NCBI GenBank assembly: GCA_015066515.1
Contig: SVOH01000009.1
Location: 1-64,000, forward strand
DNA from: Oscillospiraceae bacterium
GTDB lineage: Bacteria; Bacillota; Clostridia; Oscillospirales; Acutalibacteraceae
DNA length: 64,000 nucleotides
Direction of reading: 5' to 3'
The position numbers and the translations under genes are program-made. The notes beneath the pieces are model-generated. The model saw only the letters and a list, made by a program, of their open reading frames with translations. It was not told the DNA's origin and searched no databases. Below are positions 13,304 through 43,192 of this stretch, piece after piece. Within the stretch, counting starts at the first letter, position 1. Every line of letters starts with the position of its first letter.

Positions 13304-15061
13304 TTATTCGTTATAAGCGGGTGTGCAAACATCGATTTGATCAGGCAACTGATATAGACGAACGTGATCTATCCAAGAAGAAATCGGAAGAGTTCTGTTG
13401 TCTTCTATAACTGCCCACTGACCAAGACTGGTACCCGGTGTATAGATAAACTGGTTCATAATAAGGTAGTAGTAAAGCTCGTATCCCCAACCGTTATTAT
13501 TATTACAGTCAAAGCCATCTACACCGTCGTATGCTGTATCCCAATCACGCTCGAGCCAGCATTCACCGTCAAGATATACCTTATATCCTTCGGCTGTGTG
13601 TAAATAACCATAGGTATGGTATGTATCATTTAGTTTTTCAAGAGCTTCGCCAGTGAAAACATACTGTTGCTTACTTTCTTCAATGCTGTCGTAATGGTCG
13701 CGCCAGCTTGTGATAGTACCCCAAGTTTGATAACGATCGCCATCTTCGCGAATGTTTATCTTATTGTATTTATCAATACCTGCTAAGCTATAAATTTCTT
13801 CGCCGTTGAATAAAATCCTATTTGCAAGATTACCGTTTTCATCGTATTGTTGATATGTAATACCGTTAGAATATCTTACACCGTCGTATACAACGTCATA
13901 TGACTTATAGTATTTATGGAAGCTTACATCCCAACGATTACCGTTTGAAAATGTTTCAAAAATATCAACCTCGCAAGTCCAAGGTGCAGTAAACTGTTCT
14001 CTTGGAATAGCTGAAGATTCTTCAGGGTTACTCATAAGCCAAAGTGGCGGAAGAGAACCTTGTGTATAAGCAAGCTTAGCGTGAATTTCGATATAACCGT
14101 TTCTGTATGCCATTGTATGAGCAGTATCGTATGAGCCGTGCGTTGCGTGTGCATACTGGTCGGTATCTTCAGGCAAATAACGGATACCGCTAAGACGCAG
14201 TCTGCCGTTTTCTACGCCACAAACCTCTTCATTGTCAATAAACGCAAGATCAGGGTTGGTTGCCATATGACCCGCAACCTGCCACTTGGTTTTATCAACG
14301 TGTTCAATACCGTCAAATTCATCGCCCCATACGTATACAAGGTCCATACCGTTAACGGTCTTGGTTGAAGTAAAGTTGTCTTGTGTACCTTTAAGTGTAG
14401 CAACCTTACCCTTTTCACGCTTGATGGTTATAAACCAGTCAACCGCTTTTTCTGCCATAACAAAGTGTCCGCCCTCAAACACAAGCTTGTCGCCCTTAAG
14501 ATTTACAGCAAACTCTGTTTCTTTAAGGTTTGATTTATAGTAGGCGGTATCGCCCACTATAATCATTTTGGTAACACCTTCAAGGGCCGGGTCGGTATCC
14601 TTGTAAACAGGTAGGTCTACGTTGTCGTTATCTTTAAAAAATACTGCAAGTTTGTTTGCCAAAACGCGCATATTTGTTGTAGCGCCATGCTTGTCAGTAG
14701 ATGGTGAATAAACAATAACATAACCCTCAGGTCCTGCCCAATCAACATTTTGTGACTCGTATTCGGGATAGAAGGTTTCCTTGTGCAGTTCATCAAAAGA
14801 AAGAACCTTTTCTTCCTTTTCCTTTTTAAGAAGATCACGCTTTGCACGTGTGACTGCATCCTCTGTATTATCGTTATCATTATTGGAAATGTCAGAGTTT
14901 GTAGAATCATCTTCATCTTTGTTGCTTGGTACTACCGTGATTTTGTCACGAACTACCACTTTTTGAGGCTTCTTTTTCTTTTCTTCTTTACAGCCTACTA
15001 CAGTAAGCACCATTAAAAGAGCGAGCAAAAAACAGCTAATTCTTTTTATAGAAATTTTCAT
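13304..15061 (-). CDS. GH16-like glycoside hydrolase lipoprotein (cassette copy 1)
   Basis: Lipobox LTVVGC; VWGDEFDG; NGYIEIHAKL...LPPLWLM; EVDIFE matches GH16 ExDxxE; N-terminal extra domain MIIVGDTAYYKSN...VFEGGHFVMAEKAVDWF. Confidence 0.8.
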   Translation of the reverse strand: MKISIKRISCFLLALLMVLTVVGCKEEKKKKPQKVVVRDKITVVPSNKDEDDSTNSDISNNDNDNTEDAVTRAKRDLLKKEKEEKVLSFDELHKETFYPEYESQNVDWAGPEGYVIVYSPSTDKHGATTNMRVLANKLAVFFKDNDNVDLPVYKDTDPALEGVTKMIIVGDTAYYKSNLKETEFAVNLKGDKLVFEGGHFVMAEKAVDWFITIKREKGKVATLKGTQDNFTSTKTVNGMDLVYVWGDEFDGIEHVDKTKWQVAGHMATNPDLAFIDNEEVCGVENGRLRLSGIRYLPEDTDQYAHATHGSYDTAHTMAYRNGYIEIHAKLAYTQGSLPPLWLMSNPEESSAIPREQFTAPWTCEVDIFETFSNGNRWDVSFHKYYKSYDVVYDGVRYSNGITYQQYDENGNLANRILFNGEEIYSLAGIDKYNKINIREDGDRYQTWGTITSWRDHYDSIEESKQQYVFTGEALEKLNDTYHTYGYLHTAEGYKVYLDGECWLERDWDTAYDGVDGFDCNNNNGWGYELYYYLIMNQFIYTPGTSLGQWAVIEDNRTLPISSWIDHVRLYQLPDQIDVCTPAYNE

Positions 15062-15082
15062 ACTTATAAACCCTTCCTTTCC

Positions 15083-18000
15083 TTAAAATTTTTCAATGCA
15101 ATTTTTCTTGGATACAACAGCAATAAGTGCGCAAGCCACGATTGCTGATACAAGAATTGTTGCCACTGCGGTGTCGGCAGTTTGTGGTGATATAGGAGCC
15201 TTATCGCCGTTTACCACAACATTATTACCGCCACTTACAACGGTGCCCTTTGGAGCAATTACAATGTCATCAAAATATAGACTTGAGTTACCCGATGCTC
15301 TTATAGACACCCAGTTGGTTTGTGCCTTAAAGTCATATGTGTACTGCTTCCACTCGCCAACTCGCAAGCCTGTAGCAGTTACCATAGGCTCTACGCCTAC
15401 TTCTGTACCTAAATAATCAGGATGATTATTGTGAACAAGTGACAATGTGCAGTTGGTATCAGCCTTGTCGGTTGCTACCCAAAATACCATTGTATATTCC
15501 TGACCAACATCTAACCATTCATCATAGTTGACAAGCAAATCTGCACTCTCTGAGGAATTGTCAAGCAATTGCATTGACTTTGTTCCTGAACGAACGTAGT
15601 CAAGCTTGTAACCGCCGCGTGAACCCGGCTTGTTATAGTTCCAACGGTCTAAGTCACAATCGTAGAACGAGTAAGTATAATTTTCAAAGTTTTGAATTAC
15701 ACCATTTTGCTCCCAACCGGCAAAAAGATTAATATTACGAGGAATTAGATAATCATACGGATATTCAAGTGTAATATCAGGATATGAATACCAACCTGTA
15801 AATGTATAACCAGGACGTGAAATTGTTGGTAAGGTAATTTTTTCATATGGCTTACCCGTGATAGGTTCAACCACTATTTCAGGATCGTCGGTAACAAAAT
15901 AAATGCTTACATCGGCAACCTCAAACTGCTTGTCAGAGAACATCGAAGCGCTTCTGCCCGGCTTGTCAAATACGCGAAGCACAGGAGTACCATCAGGCTC
16001 TGTGCGCCAGGTGTTTTCCCAGTCAAAATATGGCATAGCGGTTTGGGCATCTTCGCCAACACGCCAATTTGGACGCGCTACACGTGTAGTACCAACAATA
16101 TTTTTAGTACCGTAATAATAACAATTTTCAAGTGCGTAATATGAATTAGCGGCATCTCTTATCCACTGCTGATTACCGTTACAGAATTTAATGTCATTTT
16201 GTGGGAATGAAACCGAGTTGTAAATACGTTGACCATTTGACCACGCATTACCCATAAGGCCACCGGTTTGATTATCATTAGCGCCAACTATTGTTGCTGT
16301 TACTATACAGTCACGTACAACAATTATAGCACCGCCCGGACAACCTGTACCACCGGCAGAGTTTGCCTCGATATAACAAGTATGGTCTACAAAGCAGTTA
16401 GTAAATGAAGGAAGCTTTACATATTCTCCCTCTTTGGTTACATTGCCGTCTTTATCAACTGTAGGTGGTACATAGAACTGGTCGCCAACGGTTTCAGTAT
16501 AGCTGGTTTTTTGACCATAGAAGTCATAGAACGAACTACCCATACCAAAAAGACCGCCTGCATATACGCTTTCGTCACCGATAGCAGCCTTAATATATGC
16601 TTGTGAAACACCTACGTTTTTAATCTCGGCCGAGCCACCAATTCTTGGGAACAAGCCAAGATATGAGTTTTTAGGTGTAGCCTTGTAGTTATAGTACATA
16701 CCAAATACTACGTAGCCGTCACCATCAAAATGACCTGCAAAGGAATGATAACCAAGGTCGTTGTTATGAAGCCAAGTATTACAACCAACCTTTGCGGTCC
16801 ATAGCTCGTCTGATACGTCGTTAAGATAAATGTCGCATATCATCTTGTAATAAAGGTCGCCATTACTGTTATTGCGCGCAATAGCAAGAGCTAATTGTTC
16901 ACCTGTAGCAATTAAGTATGGATCTGTTTCGCTACCTGTACCGCCTGCAAAGTTACTTGCAATCTGGCCTGACCAAATTTCACCCTGAACACCGTCGAAG
17001 GATTTAACCTTATATATTGGCATTGGGTAAGTATCGGTAGTAGCCCAAATGTCTGTAAAATCGAGCTCGGTCATATAAGTCTTGGCGTTTGCGCCGATTA
17101 TCTGACTGTTTTCGAGTACAGTTACATTTTCAAGACTGCAATCAACATCAGTATAAATTGCATCTGCTTCAATCATATCTGTACTTGCAAATGGAACCAC
17201 GCCGACGCTTACTGATGTTTCAACATTAAGCTTACCGGTTACTTCACCAACAATACCGCCAACCTTACCTGTAGCAGTAATCTTGCCTGTGAAAATACTG
17301 TTGTCCATTCTAAGCTTGGTAAATCCTACTTTACCAACAATACCGCCTGCTGTAGCATTTCCTGCAAGGGTAACGCCCTCGCCAACATATGCTGCGCGAA
17401 GTGCGGTAATATTGGTTGCATTATCCTCTACCGCGCCAATTACCGCGCCAATTACCGCGCCGTTTTCGCCCGATAAATATGAATTGTCAACCTTAACGTT
17501 ACGTGCCTCGCCGCCCGAGCCAAGCACAGGTATAAGACCTGCCGACTCGCCCGACTTAGCGTCGCTATAAATTCCGTAAACGATATGGTCATTACCGTCA
17601 AAAATACCTGTAAATGCGCCTACGTCAGATGAAGTAAGCCATTTTCTTGCCGTACTGGTCCAATTATTCGCACTTGTATCATTTATATTGATATCGGCAG
17701 TCAGTGCGTAGTATTTGCCCGACTCGCTATACATAAGCATTTGAGCAAGTCTTTCGGCTGTGTTAATCTGATATGGGTTATTTGCGCTACCGTCACCACC
17801 GGCATAAATATCTGATATAGCGCCTGTCCAAGGTTTACCCTCAACGCCTGTCTCAGATATGTGCTTGCGTGGCATTGGTATGCTGTCAGTAGCAGTCCAA
17901 GATTTTTCCCAATCGAGCACGCTTGCCGTATCCTTTACAGCATTACCCTTAATTGCATCTGCTTCAACAACGTTAACGCCAACAGCGGTCTGTTCTGCCA

Positions 18001-20056
18001 TTGTAGAAGGAGCGGCTGTATCGGTCCAAACGTTTTTAAAGCTTGTAGAATATGACTGAAGATTGTCGGCTGCAGGATAAACACCAAAGGCAAAGCCGTT
18101 CTTTACTGCGTGTGAACCACTTAAAGAACCTGCTACGAAGGCTGCATGGTTTGTTGAGCCTAAATCAGACGTAATCTGACCGCCATAAACCACGCTATCA
18201 TCAATAAATACATTACTGCTGAGGTTTGATGATGCTACCATACCGGCTGCATTCTTTGTGCTAAATACGTAACAATCAATTACTGCAATATTACGCATAT
18301 TTACAGTAGCGCCACCGTAAAGGTCAGCTACCACTGCCGCTGCGCCTACTGTTTTAGTAGTGGTTTCCGACAAATTGTCGGTTGCAGTAAATGTTGAATT
18401 TTTAATAGTAAAATTCTTAAATGTTGAATTGCCTGCTTGTGGAATAAGGGCACAACGCTCTTTTGCAGTAGATTTAATACCGTGAATTGTAACACCGTTA
18501 CCATCAAAATAACCGCTAAAGTTATTTGTTTCACCGGGATTATAAACGTTCATCTTTTTTGACTTAAGCATATTCATAGCCTCTGAATAGTTAAGCCCCT
18601 TAACGTCGTTAAAGTAAAGGTCGGTAACGCCATCAGCAACCTTATAATAACCGCTTGCATTAAGTGTTGTTACCATAAGGTAGAACTGCTCGCAGTTTTC
18701 TATAAGATATGGGTCGTCAATTGTACCTGTACCTGCGGCGTAGTTTTTAGCTGCCTTGCCGTTCCAGAAGTCCTCGCTACTTGCAGGACCACCGTTTTCA
18801 TAATACTCGTCACCCGTAGGTGCTATGTAGTAATTTTGTGGAATGGGGTAGTCATCGTCAACTACTTTCCAGTTGTATTCCCAGTCGAGATTAAGCTTTT
18901 CTTCGGCCTTCTCTCCCTTTAAATAGCCTGATTTTACTACGTTGATTTCGGGATCGGTATAGTTTAACTTGCCGTGTGTATAATGATCTACCGAGTACTT
19001 GTGTTCAACGTTTGAATAAACGTTTTTAAAGAGGTATGACGTCTGAATTGAAGGAACCTGATATCCACCCCACATTACGTCACGACCACTTGCGCCATAA
19101 ACTTGAACGTCGGCAACGATACAGTCCTCAATAGTACCCATATCATCACCACCATATACATGGCTGAAAATACCTGCGGTAATACCTTGGACTCTGCTTT
19201 CGGTGCTTGTTGCATTAAGCTCTACATCTGCTACCAAGCAGTTTTTAACTGCCGGATAATGACCGTTTACAGCGCCTAAAATACCTGACGCAAAATAACT
19301 AGCCTCTACGTAAGCGTCTCTTATAGAGCAGTTATAAACAGATGGTGCTGCTTCTGCCCAAGTAATTAAAACTGCGGCCGAGCCATATCTAAGGTCGTAC
19401 CAAGTACGATTACCGCTTGTAATACCGTTTCCTGCGTCTTTGCCTTCTTGATCATTTGAATTAATATTTGCAGTATTTACACAGTATGAATTTCTTAAGT
19501 GAACATTCTTGATTACGGCTTCATCAGCAGCAGTCGGGAAAAGTCCGGCAAACTGGTAGCCTTCGGCATAAAGACCGTAAATAAAATGACTGTCACCATC
19601 AAAGTTACCGTGGAAGGAATAATTGTTTGGAGTTATTTTACTATTATAGTAATTGCTGAAATAACCCTCGTTTTCATACCAGTTGTTAAGCACCGACCTA
19701 TCAAAATTGTCATCGCCCCACTGGTTATAGTTTGTTATGTCGTTAAGATAAATATCGGCGCCAAGCTTATAGTATGTAGCTTGGTCGTTAGCACTTAAAC
19801 CAAGGTCATATATCATTCTAAACAACTGATCGCCGTTTGTAATAATATACGGATTCAATGCGCTACCATCGCCGCTGTCAAACGGAATAGCCAATTTTTG
19901 ACTATCATAGCCGCCCCAAATCTCTGCATCTACCGGTGTTTCAGCTACAGCCTTAAAATCAACACCAATAAACACCGAAAATATTGACACCGCTAAAATT
20001 GAAAGTACCGAAAGAATTGTTATAAGTTTTCTTCCGCCGTCAATAGTTTTTTTCAT
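15083..20056 (-). CDS. Giant surface protein B (cassette copy 1): signal peptide, four GLUG-like modules, InlB/Listeria-Bacteroides-type repeat, CBM-like domain, C-terminal membrane anchor
   Basis: PYITI/DPYLI module starts; YEKITLPTISRPGYTFTGWYSYPD...FAGW repeat; GTKSMQLLDNSSESADLLVNY...SLYFDDIVIAPKG jelly-roll CBM-like; SPQTADT + TM + SKKN tail. Confidence 0.88.
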   Translation of the reverse strand: MKKTIDGGRKLITILSVLSILAVSIFSVFIGVDFKAVAETPVDAEIWGGYDSQKLAIPFDSGDGSALNPYIITNGDQLFRMIYDLGLSANDQATYYKLGADIYLNDITNYNQWGDDNFDRSVLNNWYENEGYFSNYYNSKITPNNYSFHGNFDGDSHFIYGLYAEGYQFAGLFPTAADEAVIKNVHLRNSYCVNTANINSNDQEGKDAGNGITSGNRTWYDLRYGSAAVLITWAEAAPSVYNCSIRDAYVEASYFASGILGAVNGHYPAVKNCLVADVELNATSTESRVQGITAGIFSHVYGGDDMGTIEDCIVADVQVYGASGRDVMWGGYQVPSIQTSYLFKNVYSNVEHKYSVDHYTHGKLNYTDPEINVVKSGYLKGEKAEEKLNLDWEYNWKVVDDDYPIPQNYYIAPTGDEYYENGGPASSEDFWNGKAAKNYAAGTGTIDDPYLIENCEQFYLMVTTLNASGYYKVADGVTDLYFNDVKGLNYSEAMNMLKSKKMNVYNPGETNNFSGYFDGNGVTIHGIKSTAKERCALIPQAGNSTFKNFTIKNSTFTATDNLSETTTKTVGAAAVVADLYGGATVNMRNIAVIDCYVFSTKNAAGMVASSNLSSNVFIDDSVVYGGQITSDLGSTNHAAFVAGSLSGSHAVKNGFAFGVYPAADNLQSYSTSFKNVWTDTAAPSTMAEQTAVGVNVVEADAIKGNAVKDTASVLDWEKSWTATDSIPMPRKHISETGVEGKPWTGAISDIYAGGDGSANNPYQINTAERLAQMLMYSESGKYYALTADININDTSANNWTSTARKWLTSSDVGAFTGIFDGNDHIVYGIYSDAKSGESAGLIPVLGSGGEARNVKVDNSYLSGENGAVIGAVIGAVEDNATNITALRAAYVGEGVTLAGNATAGGIVGKVGFTKLRMDNSIFTGKITATGKVGGIVGEVTGKLNVETSVSVGVVPFASTDMIEADAIYTDVDCSLENVTVLENSQIIGANAKTYMTELDFTDIWATTDTYPMPIYKVKSFDGVQGEIWSGQIASNFAGGTGSETDPYLIATGEQLALAIARNNSNGDLYYKMICDIYLNDVSDELWTAKVGCNTWLHNNDLGYHSFAGHFDGDGYVVFGMYYNYKATPKNSYLGLFPRIGGSAEIKNVGVSQAYIKAAIGDESVYAGGLFGMGSSFYDFYGQKTSYTETVGDQFYVPPTVDKDGNVTKEGEYVKLPSFTNCFVDHTCYIEANSAGGTGCPGGAIIVVRDCIVTATIVGANDNQTGGLMGNAWSNGQRIYNSVSFPQNDIKFCNGNQQWIRDAANSYYALENCYYYGTKNIVGTTRVARPNWRVGEDAQTAMPYFDWENTWRTEPDGTPVLRVFDKPGRSASMFSDKQFEVADVSIYFVTDDPEIVVEPITGKPYEKITLPTISRPGYTFTGWYSYPDITLEYPYDYLIPRNINLFAGWEQNGVIQNFENYTYSFYDCDLDRWNYNKPGSRGGYKLDYVRSGTKSMQLLDNSSESADLLVNYDEWLDVGQEYTMVFWVATDKADTNCTLSLVHNNHPDYLGTEVGVEPMVTATGLRVGEWKQYTYDFKAQTNWVSIRASGNSSLYFDDIVIAPKGTVVSGGNNVVVNGDKAPISPQTADTAVATILVSAIVACALIAVVSKKNCIEKF

Positions 20057-20087: not shown

Positions 20088-20114
20088 TTACCGCCCCTAA
20101 AATAGAGGCGGTAA
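20088..20114 (-). other. Intercistronic hairpin between solute-binding protein and surface protein B (copy 1)
   Basis: TTACCGCC / GGCGGTAA inverted repeat with no strong following T-run. Confidence 0.6.
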
Positions 20115-20130
20115 AATCAAAAAGCTTATA

Positions 20131-21591
20131 TTATTCTCTGATACCTATATTTTTAGATACAAATTTGTTAAGTGTATCAACAGCCTTGTCAACCGAAGGT
20201 GACATAGCGTTAAGCTTAGTAGCCATCTGTGTTGGGTCGCCAAGATAAAGACCTTCCCAATCCCACTCAAAGAAGCCTGTTATACCTTGTGTTGAGTCAC
20301 CTGATGTAAACTGTGGGTGGAAATTATCCATAGAGATGCCTTCGGTCATCTTGAAGAAGAACTTTTCAGCTTCTGGAGAAATGAAAGCGCCCTGTGTGTC
20401 ATAGTTACCTGCATCGAGGTAATAGCGCAAGAACAGACCTGCAGCAACAGGTTCGTCGGCACCGCGGCAAATACCCCAAGCCTTAAACATTGATGTTCCG
20501 CCCGGTTTCATACCCTCTTTATAAGCGGGTAAAGTATAGAAGCCAATGTCAGCCCAGTTAGAATAGTTTGCGTTAGAACCTGTCTTTTTAAGTGACCAAC
20601 CAAGACCACATACAATACCGGTATTACCCTTTACAAATGGGTCAACTACAGAGTTTGTTACGAAGCCTTCTTTGTTCCAAGAAGAAATCTTTGAATATGC
20701 TGTTGCGTGTTCCGGATCCTTAAGACCATTTATGAACTTGCCGTCTTCAAACTTATAAAGCTGGAAGCCTGCAGAAGCAAGAAGATAACCGTCATCAATG
20801 TATGTACCGCGTATACCCTTACCTAAGCCGTCAATATTGTCAACAGCCTTCGCAATGGCAGCGTATGCGTCCCAAGTCCATTTACCCTGCTGGTCATATT
20901 GATATGGTTCATAAGCACCAGCACGCTTAAGTAAGTTCTTGCTGTAAACTACGCATGCGTTTTCGGTCCATACATTGTTGTTTGTATCGCAGCAATATGG
21001 CTCGCCGCCAAATGTTGTATACTTAAAGATTGACTGATTCCAGATAGGATCGGTCATATCAAGCTTTGCAGCGGTAAGTGGCTGTAAAACTGCCATTGCT
21101 GCAGGGAAGTCACCACAGGTACGCATTACGTCGATGTTTGTACCTGCCGCAATCTTACCTGCGATTTCGTTTACGTTGTCACCAACAAGAATTTCTTCAA
21201 CTGTGATGCCGTATTTCTTTTCAAAGGCATCTACAACAGGACCTGATTCGTCTGTTTTAGAAAGAATTGTTGTTGCAAAAACAACTTTTTTACCACGATA
21301 ATCCTCAGGATTTACACCGCCTGTAGTGGTATCGCCACCCGGCTTGGTATCGCCGCCCTGCTGAGTATCGCCACCCTGCTGAGTGTTGTCACCCTGCTGA
21401 GTTTCATCGTTGTCATCAACAACGTTATCATTAGTAATCGGATTACCATTTTCATCAACAAGTACTTCGTTGTCTACGTATGTAATGCCGCCTGAAGACA
21501 TTTCCTCTTCGTTATTGCTACAGCCGACAAGTGCAAATACCATAGCCAAAGCTAACACCAATGCGATTATTTTTTTAACTGTACTTAACAT
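20131..21591 (-). CDS. Extracellular solute-binding lipoprotein (family 1-like), no permease adjacent (cassette copy 1)
   Basis: Lipobox ALVGC; GKKVVFATTILSKTDESGPVVDAFEKKYGITVEEILVGDNVNEI; Trp/Gly-rich SBP pattern. Confidence 0.85.
   Translation of the reverse strand: MLSTVKKIIALVLALAMVFALVGCSNNEEEMSSGGITYVDNEVLVDENGNPITNDNVVDDNDETQQGDNTQQGGDTQQGGDTKPGGDTTTGGVNPEDYRGKKVVFATTILSKTDESGPVVDAFEKKYGITVEEILVGDNVNEIAGKIAAGTNIDVMRTCGDFPAAMAVLQPLTAAKLDMTDPIWNQSIFKYTTFGGEPYCCDTNNNVWTENACVVYSKNLLKRAGAYEPYQYDQQGKWTWDAYAAIAKAVDNIDGLGKGIRGTYIDDGYLLASAGFQLYKFEDGKFINGLKDPEHATAYSKISSWNKEGFVTNSVVDPFVKGNTGIVCGLGWSLKKTGSNANYSNWADIGFYTLPAYKEGMKPGGTSMFKAWGICRGADEPVAAGLFLRYYLDAGNYDTQGAFISPEAEKFFFKMTEGISMDNFHPQFTSGDSTQGITGFFEWDWEGLYLGDPTQMATKLNAMSPSVDKAVDTLNKFVSKNIGIRE
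21347..21400 (-). repeat. 18-bp tandem repeat (x3) encoding a TQQGG(D/N) linker
   Basis: GTATCGCCGCCCTGCTGA / GTATCGCCACCCTGCTGA / GTGTTGTCACCCTGCTGA in tandem. Confidence 0.85.
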
Positions 21592-25288: not shown

Positions 25289-25317
25289 ATTATAAATTAT
25301 CTTTCAAACAAAAGCAA
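25289..25317 (-). promoter_or_regulatory. Sigma-A-type promoter for cassette copy 1
   Basis: Minus strand TTGCTT-17 bp-TATAAT upstream of the 25216 start. Confidence 0.7.
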
Positions 25318-27636: not shown

Positions 27637-27650
27637 GGAGGTAGAAAATT

Positions 27651-30962: not shown

Positions 30963-30994
30963 AACTCCCCGATTAGATTTCTAATCGGGGAGTT
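30963..30994. terminator. Bidirectional terminator between convergent genes
   Basis: AACTCCCCGATTAG-ATTT-CTAATCGGGGAGTT perfect stem. Confidence 0.9.
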
Positions 30995-32807: not shown

Positions 32808-35800
32808 TTAATTTTTTTCAATAACTTCGGTAGAATTTTTCTTGGATACTACCCAAATTACAGCGCCACAAACAATTACAGATATAAGTGCGATAATTGT
32901 TGTTGTATCCGCAGTTTGCGGAGATACAGTACTTGTTGTGCCACCGCCTACTATATAATTGTTACCACTGGTATCAACCTGTATCATACCTTTAGGAGCT
33001 ATAACAATATCATCAACAAACAAGCTTGAATTACCTGTAGCTCTTAAAGATACCCACTGAGTCTTAGCTGTAAAGTTAATGGAATATTGTTTCCATATAC
33101 CTGATTGCTGATTGGTTATAGTGGCAATTGGCTCTACGCTTACTTCAGTGTCTAAATAATCTGGGTGATTATTTTGAACCAAAGACAATGTAACGTTGTT
33201 ATTGGGCTTATCTGTTGCTACCCATAAGGTCATTGTATAGTCCTGACCCACTTTTAATCTTTCTTCGTAATTAATCAGTAAATCAGCACTTGTAGCCGCG
33301 TTGTCGAGCAGTTGCATCGACTTGGTGCCTGTATGCACATACTCAAATTTATAACCAACACGAGAACCCGGTTTGTTATAGTTCCAACGGTTTAAGTCGC
33401 AGTCATATGAAGAATAGGTGTAGCTTTCAAAGTCCTGAGAAATACCAACCTTCTTCCAACCTGCATAAACGTTGATATCGCGTGACAAGAAGAATTCATA
33501 AGGATAGAGTAGTGAGCAGTCGGCAAATGCATACCAACCGGTAAATACATATCCCTGTCTTGAAATTGTTGGGAAGGTTATAGGTTCATATGGTTTACCA
33601 ACAATAGGCTCTAACTCTATACTTGAGTCACCGGTAATAAAGTTAACCTTTACTTCACCTGTGTCATACTGTTTATCAGAGAATAGAGATGCACTTCTGT
33701 CATCTTTATCAAATACGCGAAGTACAGGCGTGCCGTCCTCTTCTGTGCGCCATGTGTTCTCCCAGTCAAGCTCAGGCATAGCGGTCTTTGCCTCTTCGCC
33801 AAGACGCCACTGTGGACGCTTAACGCGAGTAGTACCAAATACATTCTTGCTGCCGTAATAATATACATTTTCAAGGTGAATTACATTACCACCGGCATCA
33901 CGCACATTGGCCTGTGTACCGCCTATTGCACCACTATTGCTTTGTGTAAACGAAACGCAGTTATAAACACGTGAAGCATATGTCCAGAAAGAACCAATTA
34001 TACCGCCTTCACGCGATTTAACCGTGTCGTCACCTTTAATTCTTGCAGTAACAATACAATCACGCACCGCTACCGCAGCGCCACCTGGGCAACCAATACC
34101 GCCAACGCTTGTTGCCTCAATATAACACGTATGGTCTACAAAACAGTTGGAAATTTCAGGCAGCTTTGTTGGTTTTGAATTGCCTGGAACTAAATACTCA
34201 TCACCAACAGTATCGTGATAATAAATTTTCTGGCCGTAGAAGTCATAAAACGCGCTACCCATACCAAATATACCACCTGCGTATACACTGGTATCAGTAA
34301 CTGTAGCCTTGATATATGCTTCTGATATGCCAATATTTTTAACAGTTGCCGAACCGCCAATACGAGGTATAAGAGCTAAGTATGAATTTTGCGGTGTTGT
34401 TTCATAGTTGTAGTACATACCAAATACTACGTAGCCGTCACCATCAAGGTGAGAAGTAAATGCATGGGAGAAGTTTGCACCGTTAAACCAAGTGTTGCAT
34501 CCAACCTTTGCCTGCCATAATTCATCTGAAACATCGTTAAGATATATGTCGGCAATAAGCTTAAAGTGCTTATCCCCATAAGTATTAGAGCTAATAAGCA
34601 ATGCCAATTGTTCGCCGGTTGCAATAAGATACGGTGACAATTTTGTACCCTTACCGCCTGCAAACTTGCTTGCAATTTCGCCTGACCATACCTGACCCTC
34701 TACACCGTCAAAGGATTGAACCTTATGTTTAGGCACAGGATATTTTTCGGTTGTGCTCCAAACATCACCAAATGGAAGCTCTTCCATATTGTCAGAAGCG
34801 TTGTTGCCTATCATTTCACTGTTTTTAATGGTAATTACTCCAGTGGTTTTGATGTCAACATCAGTATAAACCGCACTTGCAACTACTTTATCAGCAGATG
34901 CAAATGGAGCAATACCTACAGAAACACTTTGCTTCACGTCAAGCTTACCTACAATCTCGCCAGCCAAACCGCCTATTTTACCGGTAGCCTTAATTGTACC
35001 CATAAAGATACTATTATCAAGGCGGAGTTTGGTAAAGCCTATGCGACCCACAACACCACCGGCATTAGCAGCGCCTTCAAGAGTTACGTTTTCACCTACC
35101 GCTGCTGCACGAATTGATACAATGTTTGAAGCGTCATCCTCGATACCGCCTACAACCGCACCAATATTTGCACCACTGTTACCTGAAAGGTAAGAATTAT
35201 CAATCTTAACATTTCTAAGCTCAGCCGCGGACGCCAATACAGGTATTAAGCCTGCGTAAACGCCCGACTTAACATCTTTATTGTAAAGGCCGTAAACTGT
35301 ATGGTCGTTACCGTCAAATATACCACCAAAATTGTTTACGTCTTCCGATGTATACCACTGTTTTGCATTTTTTGTCCAATCAGCAGTACTTGTATCATTA
35401 AGATAAATGTCTGCCGTAAGAGTATAGTATGCACCTGTACGGCTATAGTTTAACATTTGCGCAAGTCGCTCGGCTGTATCAATCTGATACGGATTGTTCT
35501 TACTGCCGTTACCGCCTGCATATATGTCGGAAATATTGCCCGACCATACCTCACCCTTAGTTCCTAAGGTTGAAACATGGTTTAAAATTTCAGGAATATC
35601 CTTGGTTACCTTCCAAGTATTTTCCCAATCGAACGCTGCAGCTGTCTTTTTTACTGCCTCGCCCTTAAGCTCGTCTGTAGCTACTTTCTTTATACCGGTT
35701 GCAAATTCCTCTACCTTGGGCGACGGAGCGTCTACATCGGTATAAACATTTTTATACGTACTTATATATGACAATTCATTGTCAGCAGACGGATGAATAC

Positions 35801-37793
35801 CATATGCGATACTATTTTTAATCTTATGTGAGCCGCTGTTTGATGTTGCAACAAATGCTGCTTGATGCGAAGTACCCTGATCAGACATAATACTTCCACC
35901 CGCTGCTATGCAATCGTCAATAAACACTGTGCCGTTTATGTTTGAACAGCCAACAAATGCGGCAGCGCCCTTTATACTGTTCACATTACAATCAATAACA
36001 TCAACGTTACGAATGCTCGCGTTACCGTTTGGTGAAAGGTCACCTATAATAGCTGCGGCACCTACAGTTTTGGTGGTTGCCACAGGGAAAAGGTCGTTCG
36101 CATAGAATTTTGAATTTTTAACGGTAAAGTTTTTAAGAGTTGCATTACCCGCCTGAGGAATTATACCTGCGCGGAGAGCACCCTCCGACTTAATACCGTA
36201 AATAGTAACACCGTTACCGTCAAAATAACCGCTAAATGAATTATTTTCACCCGGAGCATAAAGATTCATCTTTTTTGATTTGAGTACATTCATGGTTTCG
36301 GCATAAGTAAGTCCCTTGACATTATTAAAGTAAAGAGCCTTCACGCCGTCGGCAATCTTATAATTACCGGTAGCCTTGAGTGTACTTACCATAAGATAAA
36401 ACTGCTCACAGTTTTCAATCAAGTATGGGTCGTTTATAGTACCCGTTCCTGCAGCAAAGTTTTTAGCAGTTGTGCCATCCCAAAAATCTTCTTCGGCTTT
36501 AGGACCACCTGCTGCATAATAATCTTCACCGGTAGGAGTAATATACTGCTTTGCAGGCATTGGATAATCTCCGTCTACTACAACCCAGTTGTGTTCCCAG
36601 TCAAGATTAAGTGTTTCCTTTGCCTTGTAACCCTTGAGATAATTGGTTTTAACAACCTTAATTTCAGGGTCAGCATAAGTCAATTTGCCATATGTAGAAT
36701 GATCTACCGTATATGTGTGATCTACGTCCGAATAAACGTCCTTAAACGAATATACAGAAGCCGCAGTAGGAAGCTTATAACCATTCCAAGCACTATCGCG
36801 ATCATCTGCACCGTAAACCTTTACACCTGCCGAAATTACACCGTCAATCATTGCCGAATCAGCATAACCTTGTGGTGTGTTTATAATACCACCTTCAACA
36901 CCCTCGGCATGTTCTTCTTTACAGGTTGTTTTAAGTGTAACGTCTGCAACCAAACAGTTCTTTACCGTAGGATAAGCAGCGTTTGATAAAGAAACACCGA
37001 TAATTGCAGATGTAAATGCGCTTGCCTTTACGTAAGCATATCTTACCGAGCAGTTATTAATAGCAAGCGGTGCGTTTTCAACGTAGTTAACAATAACCGA
37101 TGCAGTACCATAGTTAGCGTCATTCCATGAGCGGTGACCCGAATTAACACCGGATTTATTGTTAAAGCCTTCTTTATCTGTGAAGCTAGCAAGTTCTTCT
37201 TCGCTAAGAGTGTTACGATCAACCTCAGGCTGATCCTTAACGTTTACACAGTAAGAGTTTCTAAAGTGAACATTTTTAATAACGGCACTGCCTTCAACCT
37301 TGGGCAAAAAAGCCGCATAGAGCGTACCTTCGGAATAAAGACCGTAAATATAGTGACCGTCACCATCAAGCGTACCTGCAAACTTTGCAAAGTTGCTTAT
37401 ATTTGATGCTTGATTCCAGTTATTGAGTGAAGCCATATCAAAATCTTCTGTGCCCCACTTTTCATAATCTGAAATATCATTAAGATAAATATCTTTTGCC
37501 AACTTATAATACGCAGGTGCACCATTTGATTTACCATTACTACTCACCATTGTATAAAGCTGGTCGCCGTTTGAAATTATGTACGGATTTACTGCAGTAC
37601 CTTCGCCGGCATCAAACGGAGTTTTCTCTACGTTTTCATGCCAGCCGCCCCAAATATCACTATTGACTTCGGGGTTTTCTGCAACAGCGGTAAAATCTAC
37701 ACCAATAAGTGCCGAGAACACCGATACTGCGAGAATAGAAAGCACCGAAAGAAATGTCAGCAGTTTTCTTCCGTACTGAATAGTTTTTTTCAT
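32808..37793 (-). CDS. Giant surface protein B (cassette copy 2)
   Basis: Start MKKTIQYGRKLLTFLS at 37793 with AAGGGAGAT SD; same module order as 15083..20056, InlB-type repeat, CBM-like domain, SPQTADT tail. Confidence 0.88.
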   Translation of the reverse strand: MKKTIQYGRKLLTFLSVLSILAVSVFSALIGVDFTAVAENPEVNSDIWGGWHENVEKTPFDAGEGTAVNPYIISNGDQLYTMVSSNGKSNGAPAYYKLAKDIYLNDISDYEKWGTEDFDMASLNNWNQASNISNFAKFAGTLDGDGHYIYGLYSEGTLYAAFLPKVEGSAVIKNVHFRNSYCVNVKDQPEVDRNTLSEEELASFTDKEGFNNKSGVNSGHRSWNDANYGTASVIVNYVENAPLAINNCSVRYAYVKASAFTSAIIGVSLSNAAYPTVKNCLVADVTLKTTCKEEHAEGVEGGIINTPQGYADSAMIDGVISAGVKVYGADDRDSAWNGYKLPTAASVYSFKDVYSDVDHTYTVDHSTYGKLTYADPEIKVVKTNYLKGYKAKETLNLDWEHNWVVVDGDYPMPAKQYITPTGEDYYAAGGPKAEEDFWDGTTAKNFAAGTGTINDPYLIENCEQFYLMVSTLKATGNYKIADGVKALYFNNVKGLTYAETMNVLKSKKMNLYAPGENNSFSGYFDGNGVTIYGIKSEGALRAGIIPQAGNATLKNFTVKNSKFYANDLFPVATTKTVGAAAIIGDLSPNGNASIRNVDVIDCNVNSIKGAAAFVGCSNINGTVFIDDCIAAGGSIMSDQGTSHQAAFVATSNSGSHKIKNSIAYGIHPSADNELSYISTYKNVYTDVDAPSPKVEEFATGIKKVATDELKGEAVKKTAAAFDWENTWKVTKDIPEILNHVSTLGTKGEVWSGNISDIYAGGNGSKNNPYQIDTAERLAQMLNYSRTGAYYTLTADIYLNDTSTADWTKNAKQWYTSEDVNNFGGIFDGNDHTVYGLYNKDVKSGVYAGLIPVLASAAELRNVKIDNSYLSGNSGANIGAVVGGIEDDASNIVSIRAAAVGENVTLEGAANAGGVVGRIGFTKLRLDNSIFMGTIKATGKIGGLAGEIVGKLDVKQSVSVGIAPFASADKVVASAVYTDVDIKTTGVITIKNSEMIGNNASDNMEELPFGDVWSTTEKYPVPKHKVQSFDGVEGQVWSGEIASKFAGGKGTKLSPYLIATGEQLALLISSNTYGDKHFKLIADIYLNDVSDELWQAKVGCNTWFNGANFSHAFTSHLDGDGYVVFGMYYNYETTPQNSYLALIPRIGGSATVKNIGISEAYIKATVTDTSVYAGGIFGMGSAFYDFYGQKIYYHDTVGDEYLVPGNSKPTKLPEISNCFVDHTCYIEATSVGGIGCPGGAAVAVRDCIVTARIKGDDTVKSREGGIIGSFWTYASRVYNCVSFTQSNSGAIGGTQANVRDAGGNVIHLENVYYYGSKNVFGTTRVKRPQWRLGEEAKTAMPELDWENTWRTEEDGTPVLRVFDKDDRSASLFSDKQYDTGEVKVNFITGDSSIELEPIVGKPYEPITFPTISRQGYVFTGWYAFADCSLLYPYEFFLSRDINVYAGWKKVGISQDFESYTYSSYDCDLNRWNYNKPGSRVGYKFEYVHTGTKSMQLLDNAATSADLLINYEERLKVGQDYTMTLWVATDKPNNNVTLSLVQNNHPDYLDTEVSVEPIATITNQQSGIWKQYSINFTAKTQWVSLRATGNSSLFVDDIVIAPKGMIQVDTSGNNYIVGGGTTSTVSPQTADTTTIIALISVIVCGAVIWVVSKKNSTEVIEKN

Positions 37794-37829
37794 CAAACTA
37801 TCTCCCTTTCTCAAAATTTTACACACGCT

Positions 37830-37861
37830 AAACCCCTGCCGCTATAAGAGCGGCAAGGTTT
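37830..37861 (-). other. Intercistronic hairpin between solute-binding protein and surface protein B (copy 2)
   Basis: AAACC-cc-TGCCGCT / AGCGGCA-a-GGTTT. Confidence 0.65.
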
Positions 37862-37874
37862 AAAGGAGATTTAA

Positions 37875-39302
37875 TTATTCGCGTATACCTGTGTTCTTTG
37901 CAACGAATTTATTCATAACGTCACAAGCTCTGTCAACACCGTCAGAAAGCTTATCAAAAGTAACGTTAACCTGACTTGGGTCGCCATAATTACACTCTTC
38001 CCAAGGTTGCTCGTCAAAACCTGTAAGTTTTTCGGTTGAATCCTCTTTTGTGTATAGAGGAGTAAAATTATCCATACCGATGTTGTCTGTCATACTAAAG
38101 AAGAAGGTTGCAGCCTCGTCAGAAATAAATGCGTCCTTTGTATTATAGTTGCTTGAGTCAAGATACTGACGAAGGAATATACCTGCGGCAACAGGCTCAT
38201 CAGCACCACGGCAAATACCCCAAAGCTTAAGCATTGCGGTACCGCCTGCCTTCATACCTTCTTTATATGCAGGCATATAATAGAAACCTATGTCATTCCA
38301 GTTGTAATTTGCGTTAGAACCATTCTTTTTAAGAGACCAACCTGCAAGACCGGTGGTAATACCAACTCTGCCTTCTGGGAATGGAATCCAACCAGAAACG
38401 AAGCCTTCCTTGTTCCAAGTAGCCAGCTTTGTCATAGCCTCACGATGCAACGGATCGTTAAGACCGTTTACAAATTTACCGTCTTCATATTTGTAAAGCA
38501 CGCAACCAATTGAACCCAATAGATAGTTTGCAACGTCGTGACAACCACGAATACCTGTACCCATACCATCAATACTGTCTACTGCTCTTGCTATAGCTGC
38601 AAAAGCGTCCCAAGTCCATTTACCTTCTTTATCATACTGTTCTGGAGTATAGCAGTTTGCACGCTGAAGAAGATTTTTTGAATAGATAACGCAAGCGTTT
38701 TCTGTCCAAATGTTACTAATTGTATTGCAAAGATATGGCTCACCGCCGAATGTGGTGTACTTAAATACTGATTGATCCCAAATAGGATCTGTCATATCAA
38801 GCTTTGCTGCGGTAATAGGCTGTAAAACTGCCATCGCTGCAGGGAAGTCAGAGTTAACACGCATTACGTCAACGTTTGTACCTGCTGCCAAAAGACCTGC
38901 TATTTCGTTTACGTTGTCTCCAACGAGAATTTCTTTAACGGTGATACCGTAGTCTTTTTCGAACTTGTCAATAACAGGACCTGATTCGTCAGCCTCTGAC
39001 AAAATTGTTGTAGCAAATACAACGGTTTTGCCGCGGTAATCTTCGGGATTTACACCGTTTGTGTATATAGCATTGCCGCTTTGTGTTGTGTTGCCACCCT
39101 GCTGAGTGTTGCCACCCTGCTGAGTGTTGCCGCCCTGCTGAGTGCCGTCACCGCTCGAAGTTTCAACGTCTTCATATATAGTGTTATACTGATAGATAAC
39201 ACTGCCTTCAGAATAATCATCCTCTGTATTGCTGCATCCTGCAAGCGAGAAAACCAAAACAAGTGCCAAAAGTAAAGCAATTATTCTTTTAGATGTGTTC
39301 AT
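37875..39302 (-). CDS. Extracellular solute-binding lipoprotein (cassette copy 2), no permease adjacent
   Basis: Lipobox SLAGC; long identical stretches with 20131..21591 (NPEDYRGK, VVFATTILS, EILVGDNVNEIAG, FPAAMAVLQP, TAAKLDMTDPIW). Confidence 0.87.
   Translation of the reverse strand: MNTSKRIIALLLALVLVFSLAGCSNTEDDYSEGSVIYQYNTIYEDVETSSGDGTQQGGNTQQGGNTQQGGNTTQSGNAIYTNGVNPEDYRGKTVVFATTILSEADESGPVIDKFEKDYGITVKEILVGDNVNEIAGLLAAGTNVDVMRVNSDFPAAMAVLQPITAAKLDMTDPIWDQSVFKYTTFGGEPYLCNTISNIWTENACVIYSKNLLQRANCYTPEQYDKEGKWTWDAFAAIARAVDSIDGMGTGIRGCHDVANYLLGSIGCVLYKYEDGKFVNGLNDPLHREAMTKLATWNKEGFVSGWIPFPEGRVGITTGLAGWSLKKNGSNANYNWNDIGFYYMPAYKEGMKAGGTAMLKLWGICRGADEPVAAGIFLRQYLDSSNYNTKDAFISDEAATFFFSMTDNIGMDNFTPLYTKEDSTEKLTGFDEQPWEECNYGDPSQVNVTFDKLSDGVDRACDVMNKFVAKNTGIRE
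39088..39141 (-). repeat. 18-bp tandem repeat (x3) encoding TQQGGN linker
   Basis: GTGTTGCCACCCTGCTGA x2 + GTGTTGCCGCCCTGCTGA. Confidence 0.9.
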
Positions 39303-39325
39303 AGTGTTTATACTCCTTTTTAATA

Positions 39326-42300
39326 TTATATCTTTGCCTTGCGAACAAACAAAAGTGTTACGCTTGCAAGAATTGCAATGATTGATTCAGGGAAAATAAC
39401 ATTTTCACCTGTTGGTGGGCTGGTCATACTGTTATCACCATTAACTCCACCCATATTGCCGATTGCTCCGTCCTCTGCAACTGCATCGCCCGCAGCCAAT
39501 ACAAAGTAACCAAACTTGTCGAGAGTAATGGTTGCAATATTTACGGGAATTGCAACCTTTTTAACTTCCTCGGGGTCGTTTTCGTTAACAATATTGCCCG
39601 ATTTATCCAACAAAATAGTCTTTGTAGTGGTAGGCATTTTTATAAGCTTGCCACTTTCAATATCAACAAGATACATTGCTGCATTCAAGCCTAAATCGTT
39701 AGGAATTTCCATAATTACGGTAGCATTACTACCAGCAGGAAGCTCCTGACTTGGAGAAATTTCGTATGGATAGAGATGCTTTTGACCTGTTTTGTCAAAT
39801 ATAGCCTTTATATCCTCATAAACCAAATCATCCTTTTTGATTGCAAAGATGTCGGTAATAACATCCTTAGTAAAGGCATTGGTAGGTGCAGTTATTTGCA
39901 ACTTATTTTCCTCGTCTAAAACACAGTAATCAAACGTACTGTAGTTGCAACCGTAGCCGCTTTCATCTTCACACCATCTGTATGTACCTTCGTAATTTTC
40001 ATTGTCTTCTACCATAGTATGCTCGGCATAATCGCCCTTGCCGCATACGTTACAGTTGTACCAGTGATGTGTATCATTAAATTCGTGCACAGGAGTGCCG
40101 TTAGCATCAAAGTCAATGTAATCGTGACCAAGCTTTTCTATTGTTACGGTTTCTTTTTCAATCACAGTAGTTGCCTGTGCATCGCTAAATCGAACATCAC
40201 ATACAGTACATCTATAGTGAGCAGTGCTTACTCCCTCTTCGCTACAGGTAGCGTCTGAAAGCTCAACCGCCTCAATAGTACCTTCATGTGTACAAATCCA
40301 CTTACAGTCACGACATTTTTCGCTATCGGTCAAAAAGGCATGAGCCTCATTTTCAGCAACCTCGTAAAGACAAACTTCACATAAACCATCGTGTGAAGCT
40401 GTTCCATCACTTGTAAACTTAACGGTGTGTTCCACACGAGAAAGTTTTGCTAAACACACCTCGCAGGTAGTCCAATGACTTTCGTAATCCATAAAGTATA
40501 CGATTTTACCTTCGGAGTCTTTGATTTCAGTGTGCATACCAGTTGCTTTCAATACAACTTCACTGGCAGAAACGGCAGAATCATAAGGCGCCATTACATC
40601 ATTTGTCAAGAATATGCACTCGCAGTTTTCACAAGTGTAGTATTCTACATTACCATCCGCAGCGCAGGTAGGTGCTTTTGCCTCGGTCTTTTCAAATATA
40701 TGACCTTTTGCTTCGGTGTGGTTTAACTGCTCTGTGTATCCGCAAGCACATTCGGTTTTTGTGTGTTTGGGGGTTATACAGTCATTTTCTTTATATTCAG
40801 TCACCTTGTGATATTCTGTATTTTTATGGTCGCAGGTAAATCCACAAACCGTACAGTTATAATTATCGGTATATTGGTGATTTAAAATCACTACGCCTGC
40901 AAGTCCGCAAGCCTTACAAACGGCTGTATGACCTGCATAGCCGTCACCAGGATTTACGGAACCCTCTATATTGTGGCAAACCAGAAGATCCAATACACCT
41001 TCATTTGCAAACCAATGTTTACCAAAGTCAAGGTTCGTTTTTTGAGGAGCATTTGTACCGCTTAAATCGTCAATAGTAAGAGTTCTTATCTGTGCTTTTC
41101 CGTATCCGTTTATTACCTGATCGGTATAAACATTGGCAAAGCAGTTTACATTAACAGCATGATCGTGTATTGTTTTGTTTCCAGCTGAGGTCGGCATAAT
41201 CTCGGGATATGGCATACTGCCAATCATTACAGAATTTGTAATTGTGGCATAACCGCCCCACGCACCCGCTTGAGCCAAGAAACCACCGCTGATATCGGTA
41301 GCTACAAACTTGTTGTTAACAGATAGGCAGTTATTAATTGTAGCCACGTTGTTACCACAATTACCAACAATAGCACCGGCTGTTCTTTGGCAAGCGTTAT
41401 TAGTGTTACCGTTATCGCCCATTAAACAGTTCTTTACCGCGCAGTTTTCTACAATAAGTGTTTGACCGCCGGTTGAACATTCTGCAGCACCTATGATACC
41501 GCCTGAGCTGTGATAACCTGCAAAACGCGACGCTACAATCGTAATATTTTTAATTGTAACGGTTTTCTCGGTATTGTCAGTAACAGGGTGTGGGAACAAA
41601 CCACCATAACCGTTTGACCTACCGTTGCCCGAACGAAGGTTATAAATTATTACACCGTTACCATCAAAATTGCCCGCAAACGTTTTGCTATCGTTTACCC
41701 AATCCTTACCTTCGGTTGCATTTTTAACATCTTCTACAGTTGAATCAAGTGTTATACCTACCATACCATTCATATTGAATATCATGTTAGGAGCAACCTG
41801 ATAATATTTACCAGCCGATTCTGCCGTTGTGGTTTTAAGTGCTACATAGGCCATATTTTCGGCAGTCTTTACTATGTATGGATTTTCTTTAGAACCATCA
41901 CCCGCAGGGAAGTTGCTGTCGTATGAACCATCCCACACATCAGTACGTCTTTCGGTAATTGGAGCCGAAAAACCGCACGCACATATGCCTATGGTACCGG
42001 TAGCATTTTCAACAAAAGTATGGGTCTCTGCCATAGCTTTGCCGCAGTCGGTGCAGGTTATATTATGTGTAGCATCATCTTTTTGCTCAAGTACCAAGGT
42101 ATGATTTGCTCTATAGTCAGGCAATTCGTCTTCAAAAGCAATCCATATTCCCCAGTCAAAGTCGGGCATATTGATTTTTGCGTTAGGCCCTTTCATATCG
42201 GCCTCTGCAACCTGCTTTATCTGATTCGCAGCATAGTTTGTATCTACCGGCTGATCGGTATAAACACCGGCGTAAGTACCGGGAACATTAAGATGCTTAT

Positions 42301-43192
42301 TTATTTTTTGGTTACTGCCGGTTACTATTGGATAAGCGCTGGAGCCTAACACGATACAGCTTTGTATTGAAATACTAGGACAATATAAACTTGTCTGACC
42401 TACAATACCGCCGCTTATCTCGGTAGCGCTTGTAACGTTTCCGGAAGCAAAACAGTTTTTAATTGTTGCAGTATTGTGAGTAATGTTACCAACAATTATA
42501 CCACTAGATTTTTGAGCACTTGGGTTTGTATTGTTGTTATCGGTAATCCAACAGTTTAATACCTTGCAATTTTCAACCGCCGCTGTTCTTGAGGTATCAG
42601 GTGCGTGATATTCACCCACGATACCTCCCGCTGTATGATAACCTATAGAACGAGAAGCAAGTAGTGTGATACCTTTTATCCAAGACGTTTTTTGAGTATT
42701 ATCGTTGGTAGGACGTGGAAAAAGGCCGCCCTGAGCATAGCCGCCAGAATACATATTATAAATTATGACACCATTACCGTCAAAGTAACCTGCAAAGGTT
42801 CGGGCACCATCGCCGGATGTTCTCCAATTTTTGTCGGTATCAGCCGTCATAACGTCACCAACTGTTGAGTCAACCGTTATATCCTTCATACCGCTAAGGT
42901 TAAATGTAGCATCGGCTATAACTTTAAAGTATTTGCCGCTTGACACTGTAGACGGACCCAATATCGCATAAGCCAATTCCTCAGCTGTGGCAATTATATA
43001 TGGGTCTTCCTCAGTACCGCTACCACTCGAAAAGCCCGTAGCCAAAGTACCGTCCCAAGTGTCTGTCACGGTAGCTGCAGATGCGCCAAAGCTAATACCG
43101 GGCACAGCCACAAATAAGGACACCACCAAAATTGCAACCGCAACCATAACGCTAAGCAATGACTTAACCGCTTGAAACAGTTTGTTTTTCAT
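39326..43192 (-). CDS. Giant surface protein A (cassette copy 2), Cys-rich
   Basis: Paralog of 21614..25216; two GLUG-like modules, CxxC repeats (CACG, CENCE, CEVC, CTVC, CNVC), tail TSPPTGENVIFPESIIAILASVTLLFVRKAKI. Confidence 0.87.
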   Translation of the reverse strand: MKNKLFQAVKSLLSVMVAVAILVVSLFVAVPGISFGASAATVTDTWDGTLATGFSSGSGTEEDPYIIATAEELAYAILGPSTVSSGKYFKVIADATFNLSGMKDITVDSTVGDVMTADTDKNWRTSGDGARTFAGYFDGNGVIIYNMYSGGYAQGGLFPRPTNDNTQKTSWIKGITLLASRSIGYHTAGGIVGEYHAPDTSRTAAVENCKVLNCWITDNNNTNPSAQKSSGIIVGNITHNTATIKNCFASGNVTSATEISGGIVGQTSLYCPSISIQSCIVLGSSAYPIVTGSNQKINKHLNVPGTYAGVYTDQPVDTNYAANQIKQVAEADMKGPNAKINMPDFDWGIWIAFEDELPDYRANHTLVLEQKDDATHNITCTDCGKAMAETHTFVENATGTIGICACGFSAPITERRTDVWDGSYDSNFPAGDGSKENPYIVKTAENMAYVALKTTTAESAGKYYQVAPNMIFNMNGMVGITLDSTVEDVKNATEGKDWVNDSKTFAGNFDGNGVIIYNLRSGNGRSNGYGGLFPHPVTDNTEKTVTIKNITIVASRFAGYHSSGGIIGAAECSTGGQTLIVENCAVKNCLMGDNGNTNNACQRTAGAIVGNCGNNVATINNCLSVNNKFVATDISGGFLAQAGAWGGYATITNSVMIGSMPYPEIMPTSAGNKTIHDHAVNVNCFANVYTDQVINGYGKAQIRTLTIDDLSGTNAPQKTNLDFGKHWFANEGVLDLLVCHNIEGSVNPGDGYAGHTAVCKACGLAGVVILNHQYTDNYNCTVCGFTCDHKNTEYHKVTEYKENDCITPKHTKTECACGYTEQLNHTEAKGHIFEKTEAKAPTCAADGNVEYYTCENCECIFLTNDVMAPYDSAVSASEVVLKATGMHTEIKDSEGKIVYFMDYESHWTTCEVCLAKLSRVEHTVKFTSDGTASHDGLCEVCLYEVAENEAHAFLTDSEKCRDCKWICTHEGTIEAVELSDATCSEEGVSTAHYRCTVCDVRFSDAQATTVIEKETVTIEKLGHDYIDFDANGTPVHEFNDTHHWYNCNVCGKGDYAEHTMVEDNENYEGTYRWCEDESGYGCNYSTFDYCVLDEENKLQITAPTNAFTKDVITDIFAIKKDDLVYEDIKAIFDKTGQKHLYPYEISPSQELPAGSNATVIMEIPNDLGLNAAMYLVDIESGKLIKMPTTTKTILLDKSGNIVNENDPEEVKKVAIPVNIATITLDKFGYFVLAAGDAVAEDGAIGNMGGVNGDNSMTSPPTGENVIFPESIIAILASVTLLFVRKAKI

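Follow-up and report, generated by a model that had tools for sequence, protein, structure and literature searches.

Sus-type polysaccharide-utilisation loci (PULs) of Bacteroidota combine surface glycan binding, a surface endo-enzyme and uptake, and do so through SusC/SusD and an outer membrane. A Gram-positive PUL (gpPUL) is known from Blautia producta, where a locus for mixed-linkage beta-glucan encodes BpGH16MLG, the solute-binding protein (SBP) BpSBPMLG, an ABC transporter and a GH94 enzyme (PMC10318527). In Gram-positive carbohydrate importers it is usual for the ATPase to be encoded apart from the rest, and MsmX-type ATPases serve many importers (PMC7658222). Here, we describe two operons of four genes each (A-S-B-E, hereafter the cassettes) in a window of 64,000 nucleotides, the whole stretch of DNA that was analysed, from an Oscillospiraceae bacterium (assembly GCA_015066515.1, contig SVOH01000009.1, positions 1 to 64,000). 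Each cassette encodes two giant surface proteins (A and B), a predicted solute-binding lipoprotein (S), and a putative GH16 lipoprotein (E). We give a probability of about 0.6 to the reading that each cassette works as a permease-less part of a Gram-positive system for polysaccharide utilisation, which would hand oligosaccharides over to an importer whose genes lie in another part of the genome.

The core of the B. producta locus, i.e., a cell-anchored GH16 endo-enzyme, CBM4-type carbohydrate-binding modules (CBMs) and an SBP, resembles that predicted for the cassettes (PMC10318527). An earlier note on this DNA, made from the sequence alone, knew of no Firmicutes system with this composition; this is not supported, given that the general composition of cell-anchored GH16, SBP and ABC importer is described for that species. 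In B. producta, however, the GH16 enzyme itself carries the CBMs, and the permease, ATPase, phosphorylase and regulator lie within the locus, whereas the cassettes split the GH16 and the CBM/beta-helix modules into separate proteins and have the permeases and the ATPase elsewhere. With the CUT1 importers that share an MsmX/MsmK ATPase (PMC7658222), the common features are a MalE-like SBP, MalF/MalG in paralogous loci, and an ATPase in trans. They differ in that the SBP of the cassettes is also apart from the permeases, next to a surface enzyme and giants, and in that NHL/Yip1 and DUF5696 of the parent importer are flanked on either side by a pair of permeases. The cohesins, dockerin-bearing beta-helix giants and GH16s of the same genome recall cellulosome-like systems, among them the Limousia mucinolysome (PMC12997984), but A, B, S and E use lipoboxes and C-terminal anchors and have no dockerin or cohesin. 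The cassettes work like a gpPUL and are related to an importer locus, and we do not class them as gpPULs because two usual features, permeases and a regulator in the locus, are absent. Sus-type PULs are alike in function only, since the cassettes have neither SusC/SusD nor an outer membrane.

The two operons have the same four genes in the same order and on the same strand, as the earlier note had observed. The open reading frame (ORF) calls place all eight genes at the expected positions on the minus strand (Table 1), and the proteins of operons 1 and 2 are 38% (A), 63% (S), 59% (B) and 56% (E) identical. DNA identity is about 65-75% over the alignable parts. With protein identities of this size, the duplication is old and no artefact of the assembly. 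A glycoside hydrolase (E) and an SBP (S) are thus found in one operon two times over. We also agree with the earlier note that neither operon contains an ABC permease gene; neither includes a transcriptional regulator, and an AraC gene lies at 59196-60005.

The link to an importer comes from the paralogues of S, B and E. A family-by-family search of the genome gives four strong S homologues: the two in the window and two on another contig, C17. The latter (S3 and S4) are 45-46% identical to S1 and lie in a locus that reads, in the order of transcription, SBP (976 amino acids)-MalF'-MalG'-NHL/Yip1-DUF5696-MalF-MalG-B3-E3-S3-S4-B4, after which the contig ends. Taken alone, S1 and S2 have no match in Pfam. 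The paralogue S4, a member of the same alignment, matches SBP_bac_8 at 5e-14, and the profile of the S family matches 2zyk in the PDB at 1.6e-5. Because the S, B and E paralogues stand beside a complete importer, and because sister genomes have the order MalF-MalG-S-B-E, we identify S as a predicted SBP of the CUT1/MalE type. The same paralogues, which share a locus with MalF/MalG, together with closest relatives outside the clade that are mostly permease-linked, speak against the earlier note's contrast between a surface complex and a conventional importer. At the end of another contig, C20, lie the remaining part of a B protein and, after it, E4, and the genes past E4 match in size and order those past S-B-E in RGIG3004 (L025), from which we infer that C17 and C20 very probably join. 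A single MsmX/UgpC-type ATPase scores above the family cut-off in the genome (C20:26910-28034) and is encoded outside the importer locus.

Two further loci of this genome contain related permeases. One is a second, diverged locus with a large SBP-MalF'-MalG'-NHL/Yip1-DUF5696-MalF-MalG (L185, G000:C26:47000-62000), followed by an anchored protein of 1344 amino acids and not by S-B-E. The other is a solitary MalG permease (L174:771-1805, G000:C12), 78% identical to the MalG of C17. DUF5696 is present in 61 of the 117 genomes sampled from the order, and we found no description of DUF5696, of Yip1-type importers, or of systems combining GLUG/beta-helix proteins and an SBP in the literature searched. 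The parent importer type may therefore be widespread and undescribed, its neighbours having been examined within the genus only.

Profiles and a structural model identify E as a GH16 enzyme with an intact catalytic motif. The lipoprotein signal is followed by a disordered linker, an alpha/beta domain and the GH16 domain. A four-row E profile matches the GH16 structure 6xqf among PDB sequences (9e-16), whereas a 33-row profile places the mucin O-glycanase 6t2n (2.4e-32) marginally before laminarinases (1.2e-30). The AlphaFold2 model of E has a mean predicted local distance difference test score of 80, with most of the GH16 domain well predicted, and shows a beta-jelly-roll fold; Foldseek matches it to the endo-beta-1,3(4)-glucanase SCLam at 1.3e-15 and to GH16s with a TMt of about 0.7. 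All 33 E homologues conserve Trp245, Gly246, Asp247 and Glu248, and likewise the catalytic motif E364xD366xxE369. The Pfam model PF00722 gives E2 a score of 20.9 (gathering score 22) and does not match E1, while relatives in L035, L023 and L111 pass the threshold. NCBIfam has no match for A1, S1, E1, E2 or the 201-amino-acid protein, and a Pfam search on isolated domains gave no family for the N-terminal alpha/beta domain of E, which may resemble GH20b-type accessory domains, a likeness left out of the argument.

The giants share one type of module. In B, repeated beta-helix modules and an InlB-type repeat precede a CBM4/22-like sandwich near the C-terminus; the profile search of B matches an IgA1-protease-like chain and the InlB repeat, and Foldseek of its C-terminal part matches CBM22/CBM4 and beta-helix tailspikes. 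Matches of B to the folds of iota-toxin/CDTb have TM-scores <0.25, and we read them as shared beta-sandwich/CBM-like folds and not as kinship with toxins. Searching PDB sequences with full-length A and B profiles returned nothing. In A, modules of the same type are accompanied by a CxxC-rich segment and a C-terminal anchor: A1 and A2 have 36 and 44 cysteines and 7 and 9 CxxC motifs, in line with the Cys-rich, C-terminally anchored proteins of the earlier note. Beta-helix modules related to A are found in about a dozen further giants of this 2-Mb genome, several with dockerins. One protein on contig C24 (L018:5499-10406) combines a GH16 domain with A-type modules and a weak dockerin in one chain, which is evidence that giants and GH16 act together. 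Surface capture combined with a GH16 enzyme is well supported overall, and the glycan-capture or processing unit suspected at first is strengthened by the invariant ExDxxE of the GH16, the SBP and the CBM4/22-like domain in B.

The C-terminal motifs of A and B, each followed by a transmembrane segment and a basic tail, are (S/P)PxT-type signals similar to SPKTG/SPQTG, which sortase substrates carry in C. difficile (PMC5569036). Two sortases are encoded in the genome. The SPPTGE of A2 fits the clostridial pattern, and because SPQTAD (B) and SPATKT (A1) are degenerate, the safest guess is that A2 alone is covalently anchored, while the other A/B proteins may remain in the membrane.

The survey of relatives showed which genes belong together. 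S homologues (E below 1e-15) are present in 50 of 70 genomes of the same genus and in 3 of 79 outside it. We counted neighbours within four genes of the 46 S homologues with at least 200 bits in the fetched loci, requiring the GH16 to be on the same strand: 34 are near a GH16, 40 near a B-type giant, 33 near both, and 19 near a permease. Several of the exceptions to the S-B-E linkage sit at contig ends. Hence, the recurrent co-occurrence predicted earlier is found for S-B-E. Three architectures recur: MalF-MalG-S-B-E, usual in sister genomes and contiguous in five (L097, L104, L106, L107, L108); permease-less E-S-B (L035, L041, L042, L109, L115-L119); and A-S-B-E (the window, L096, L098), with L099 and L102 cut at S. 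The last is confined to this genome (G000), G009 and G018, and in G034 the contig stops at S. These architectures show that S, B and E are a conserved core triad and that A is a lineage-specific addition, which rules out the earlier idea of A as a core partner. The named members are metagenome-assembled genomes (MAGs) of uncultured Clostridia, mostly from the colon, caecum and rectum of ruminants.

In a quick tree of S, rooted at the midpoint, S1 and S2 fall inside a set of seven permease-less SBPs (SH-aLRT 100) beside a permease-linked group. Because S1 pairs with L096 and S2 with L099, both of RGIG3004 (G018), the duplication predates the species split, with both copies retained. The dN/dS values of the orthologues of A1, S1, B1, E1, S2, B2 and E2 range from 0.02 to 0.24 (those of A2 are lost to contig ends), so the testable cassette genes are under purifying selection. 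A permease-linked S paralogue is present in all four genomes of the clade (G000, G009, G018, G034). Some of these loci have peculiarities of their own. The E homologue of G009 is split in two ORFs (L101:7827-9646), probably by a frameshift or an assembly error. In G018, L099 and L100 begin at the same point inside near-identical copies of S, probably because the assembly broke where S was recently duplicated, and L100 has S without B or E.

Taken together, these data suggest how the cassettes may work. B, and A in this lineage, would be giants anchored to the wall or membrane that hold the polysaccharide through CBM-like and beta-helix surfaces. E, an endo-acting GH16 on a flexible lipid-anchored tether, would cleave the chain, and S, lipid-anchored on its long linker, would capture the oligosaccharides. 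S1 and S2 could then dock in trans on the MalF/MalG-type permeases of the C17 locus, for which the MsmX/UgpC-type ATPase of C20 would supply the energy. The ancestor would have been a MalF-MalG-S-B-E importer operon that lost its permease linkage, gained A, and was duplicated before the species split. The two copies probably provide two SBP/enzyme specificities for one importer. We put forward, tentatively, a broader version of plug-in uptake, in which several permease-less cassettes of an anchored beta-helix scaffold, a tethered GH16 and a tethered SBP, each specific for a glycan of its own, supply a single importer at another locus.

Several observations weigh against this mechanism. The proposed docking of S1/S2 on the C17 permeases rests on the position of their paralogues beside MalF/MalG. 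The GH16 domain of E is divergent and shares about 18% of its residues with solved structures, no curated domain exceeds the Pfam cut-off in A or B, and CBM-like folds are also known in proteins that do not bind glycans. Furthermore, several relatives, for example G010, G015 and G057, have a permease-less S and no permease-linked S among the loci of the best 60 matches. Among the same loci, a permease-linked S was seen in only about half of the 20 genomes of the genus that have a permease-less one, in a tally that missed that of G000 itself because S3 is just past the 7-kb limit.

The substrate is undecided between a beta-1,3/1,4-glucan and a host galactan. The single GH94-type phosphorylase of the genome and the lack of a BNR_2 sialidase in the genome search lean to beta-glucan. 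The neighbourhood of operon 2 leans to host or mannose-containing glycans: a GH95 fucosidase gene (43530-46142, minus strand) is directly upstream of A2 on the same strand, and beyond it are GH38, DUF6259, two GH130 and an AraC regulator (51758-60005), probably a cluster for mannosides or host glycans. The same surface system might accordingly serve to harvest hindgut mucus, with E1 and E2 as endo-beta-galactosidases akin to the mucin O-glycanase type of GH16. This fits the first rank of 6t2n with the 33-row profile, these flanking genes, and the origin of the sister MAGs in the rectum, colon and caecum, but we consider it unlikely, because laminarinase-type enzymes come first with the four-row window-type profile and with the E model, the sialidase and phosphorylase results point the other way, and the flanking carbohydrate-active enzymes were not seen near sister cassettes in the fetched flanks, as judged by gene size and cassette profiles.

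The lack of permeases in both operons, and within four genes of more than half of the S loci of the genus, could also mean that the cassettes are self-contained attachment units, in which S is a lipid-anchored glycan lectin on a long, flexible linker that passes no ligand to a permease. We regard this as slightly less likely still, since outside the clade the nearest S paralogues are mostly linked to permeases and the hairpin behind S, typical of importer SBP genes (PMC9045158), is retained. Remodelling of an exopolysaccharide or wall glycan made by the cell itself, and not of a foreign glycan, is an improbable role for the cassettes: many beta-helix giants and the cohesin/dockerin set share the surface, yet no glycosyltransferase or polysaccharide export gene is among the annotated genes of the window, and the cassette paralogues are linked to an importer. 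Finally, the missing permeases might mark the operons as decaying relics of an importer locus. This is extremely improbable, as all ORFs are intact, both copies are kept across species, and the promoters, terminators and hairpins are in place; decay is ruled out by the dN/dS values. We retain the permease-less uptake module as our preferred reading.

Each operon is a discrete unit, with a probable promoter before A, a hairpin between S and B, and a terminator behind E (Table 1). Both promoter candidates are sigma-A-like with a spacing of 17 nucleotides, one for each operon, and such matches are frequent by chance in AT-rich DNA like this window. Among the closer homologues, the majority have a hairpin at this position with a different sequence, and several E-S-B loci have none. 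The hairpin matches internal terminators of clostridial importer operons, which increase the dosage of the SBP (PMC9045158). The ATG codons at 37793 (B2) and 32785 (E2), each with a good Shine-Dalgarno sequence, are the most likely starts of these genes, leaving B-E gaps of 21 and 22 nucleotides in the two operons.

Table 1. Genes and putative regulatory features of the two cassettes (positions in the window; TM, transmembrane segment).
Feature	Position	Strand	Description
A1	21614..25216	-	Secreted, 1200 aa; two beta-helix-like modules and a Cys-rich (CxxC) segment; SPATKT + TM + basic tail at C-terminus
S1	20131..21591	-	486-aa SBP lipoprotein (CUT1/MalE-like); low-complexity linker of ~65 residues behind lipobox
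B1	15083..20056	-	Giant of 1657 aa; beta-helix modules in repeats, an InlB-type B repeat and a CBM4/22-like sandwich (CBM-like part at residues ~1457-1605); ends in SPQTAD + TM + KK
E1	13304..15061	-	585-aa lipoprotein; conserved N-terminal alpha/beta domain (residues ~95-235) and divergent GH16, ExDxxE at E364/D366/E369
A2	39326..43192	-	1288-aa paralogue of A1; SPPTGE + TM + RKAK anchor
S2	37875..39302	-	475-aa SBP lipoprotein; 63% identity to S1
B2	32808..37793	-	1661-aa paralogue of B1; start revised from GTG 37826
E2	31010..32785	-	591-aa GH16 lipoprotein; start revised from TTG 32821
Operon 1 probable promoter	25289..25317	-	TTGCTT-17-TATAAT; found by eye, not listed by promoter scan
Operon 2 candidate promoter	43235..43263	-	TTGACG-17-TATAAT, extended -10; promoter scan score 11/12
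S1-B1 hairpin	20088..20114	-	GC-rich; probable internal terminator/mRNA stabiliser
S2-B2 hairpin	37830..37861	-	Position as in operon 1, sequence different
Operon 1 predicted intrinsic terminator	13262..13297	-	After E1
Operon 2 predicted intrinsic terminator	30963..30994	-	Between E2 and the convergent DUF4340 gene

Other genes of the window include a set between the cassettes (25784-30949, plus strand) that encodes an ABC ATPase, an ABC-2 type permease, a GldG-like protein (ABC_transp_aux) and DUF4340; genes of similar size also flank A in G009 (L098) and G018 (L096). The minus strand encodes a serpin-family protease inhibitor (61953-63212) and a probable restriction-modification system (49284-51658) with a PD-(D/E)XK-like nuclease next to a D12 adenine methylase and an N6/N4 methylase in one cluster. 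A-type modules are also found in further beta-helix giants at 2885-7678 and at the start of the contig (~1-2600), both on the minus strand, and the window has six such proteins. Elsewhere in the genome, there are seven cohesins (contigs C7, C23, C26, C30, C35), several in small TM-anchored proteins, and about 20 dockerins (C3, C16, C18, C26, C29, C31, C40 and others), many on beta-helix giants. This set is an unusual cellulosome-like system; contig C14 has no dockerin or cohesin match.

The cassettes are real, conserved and probably functional, and their general purpose, glycan harvesting, is ordinary. What is unusual is that permease-less cassettes were duplicated and retained, that the enzyme and the giant scaffolds are separate proteins, and that the parent importer appears to be undescribed. 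The cassettes link the beta-helix giants, divergent GH16 lipoproteins and DUF5696/Yip1 importers of uncultured Clostridia from the ruminant hindgut into one testable system. They suggest how Gram-positive gut bacteria could broaden the range of glycans they use, namely by a duplication limited to the half of an importer locus that acts at the surface. If plug-in uptake is true, the range of the diet would evolve by duplication and swapping of cassettes, leaving the transporter untouched.

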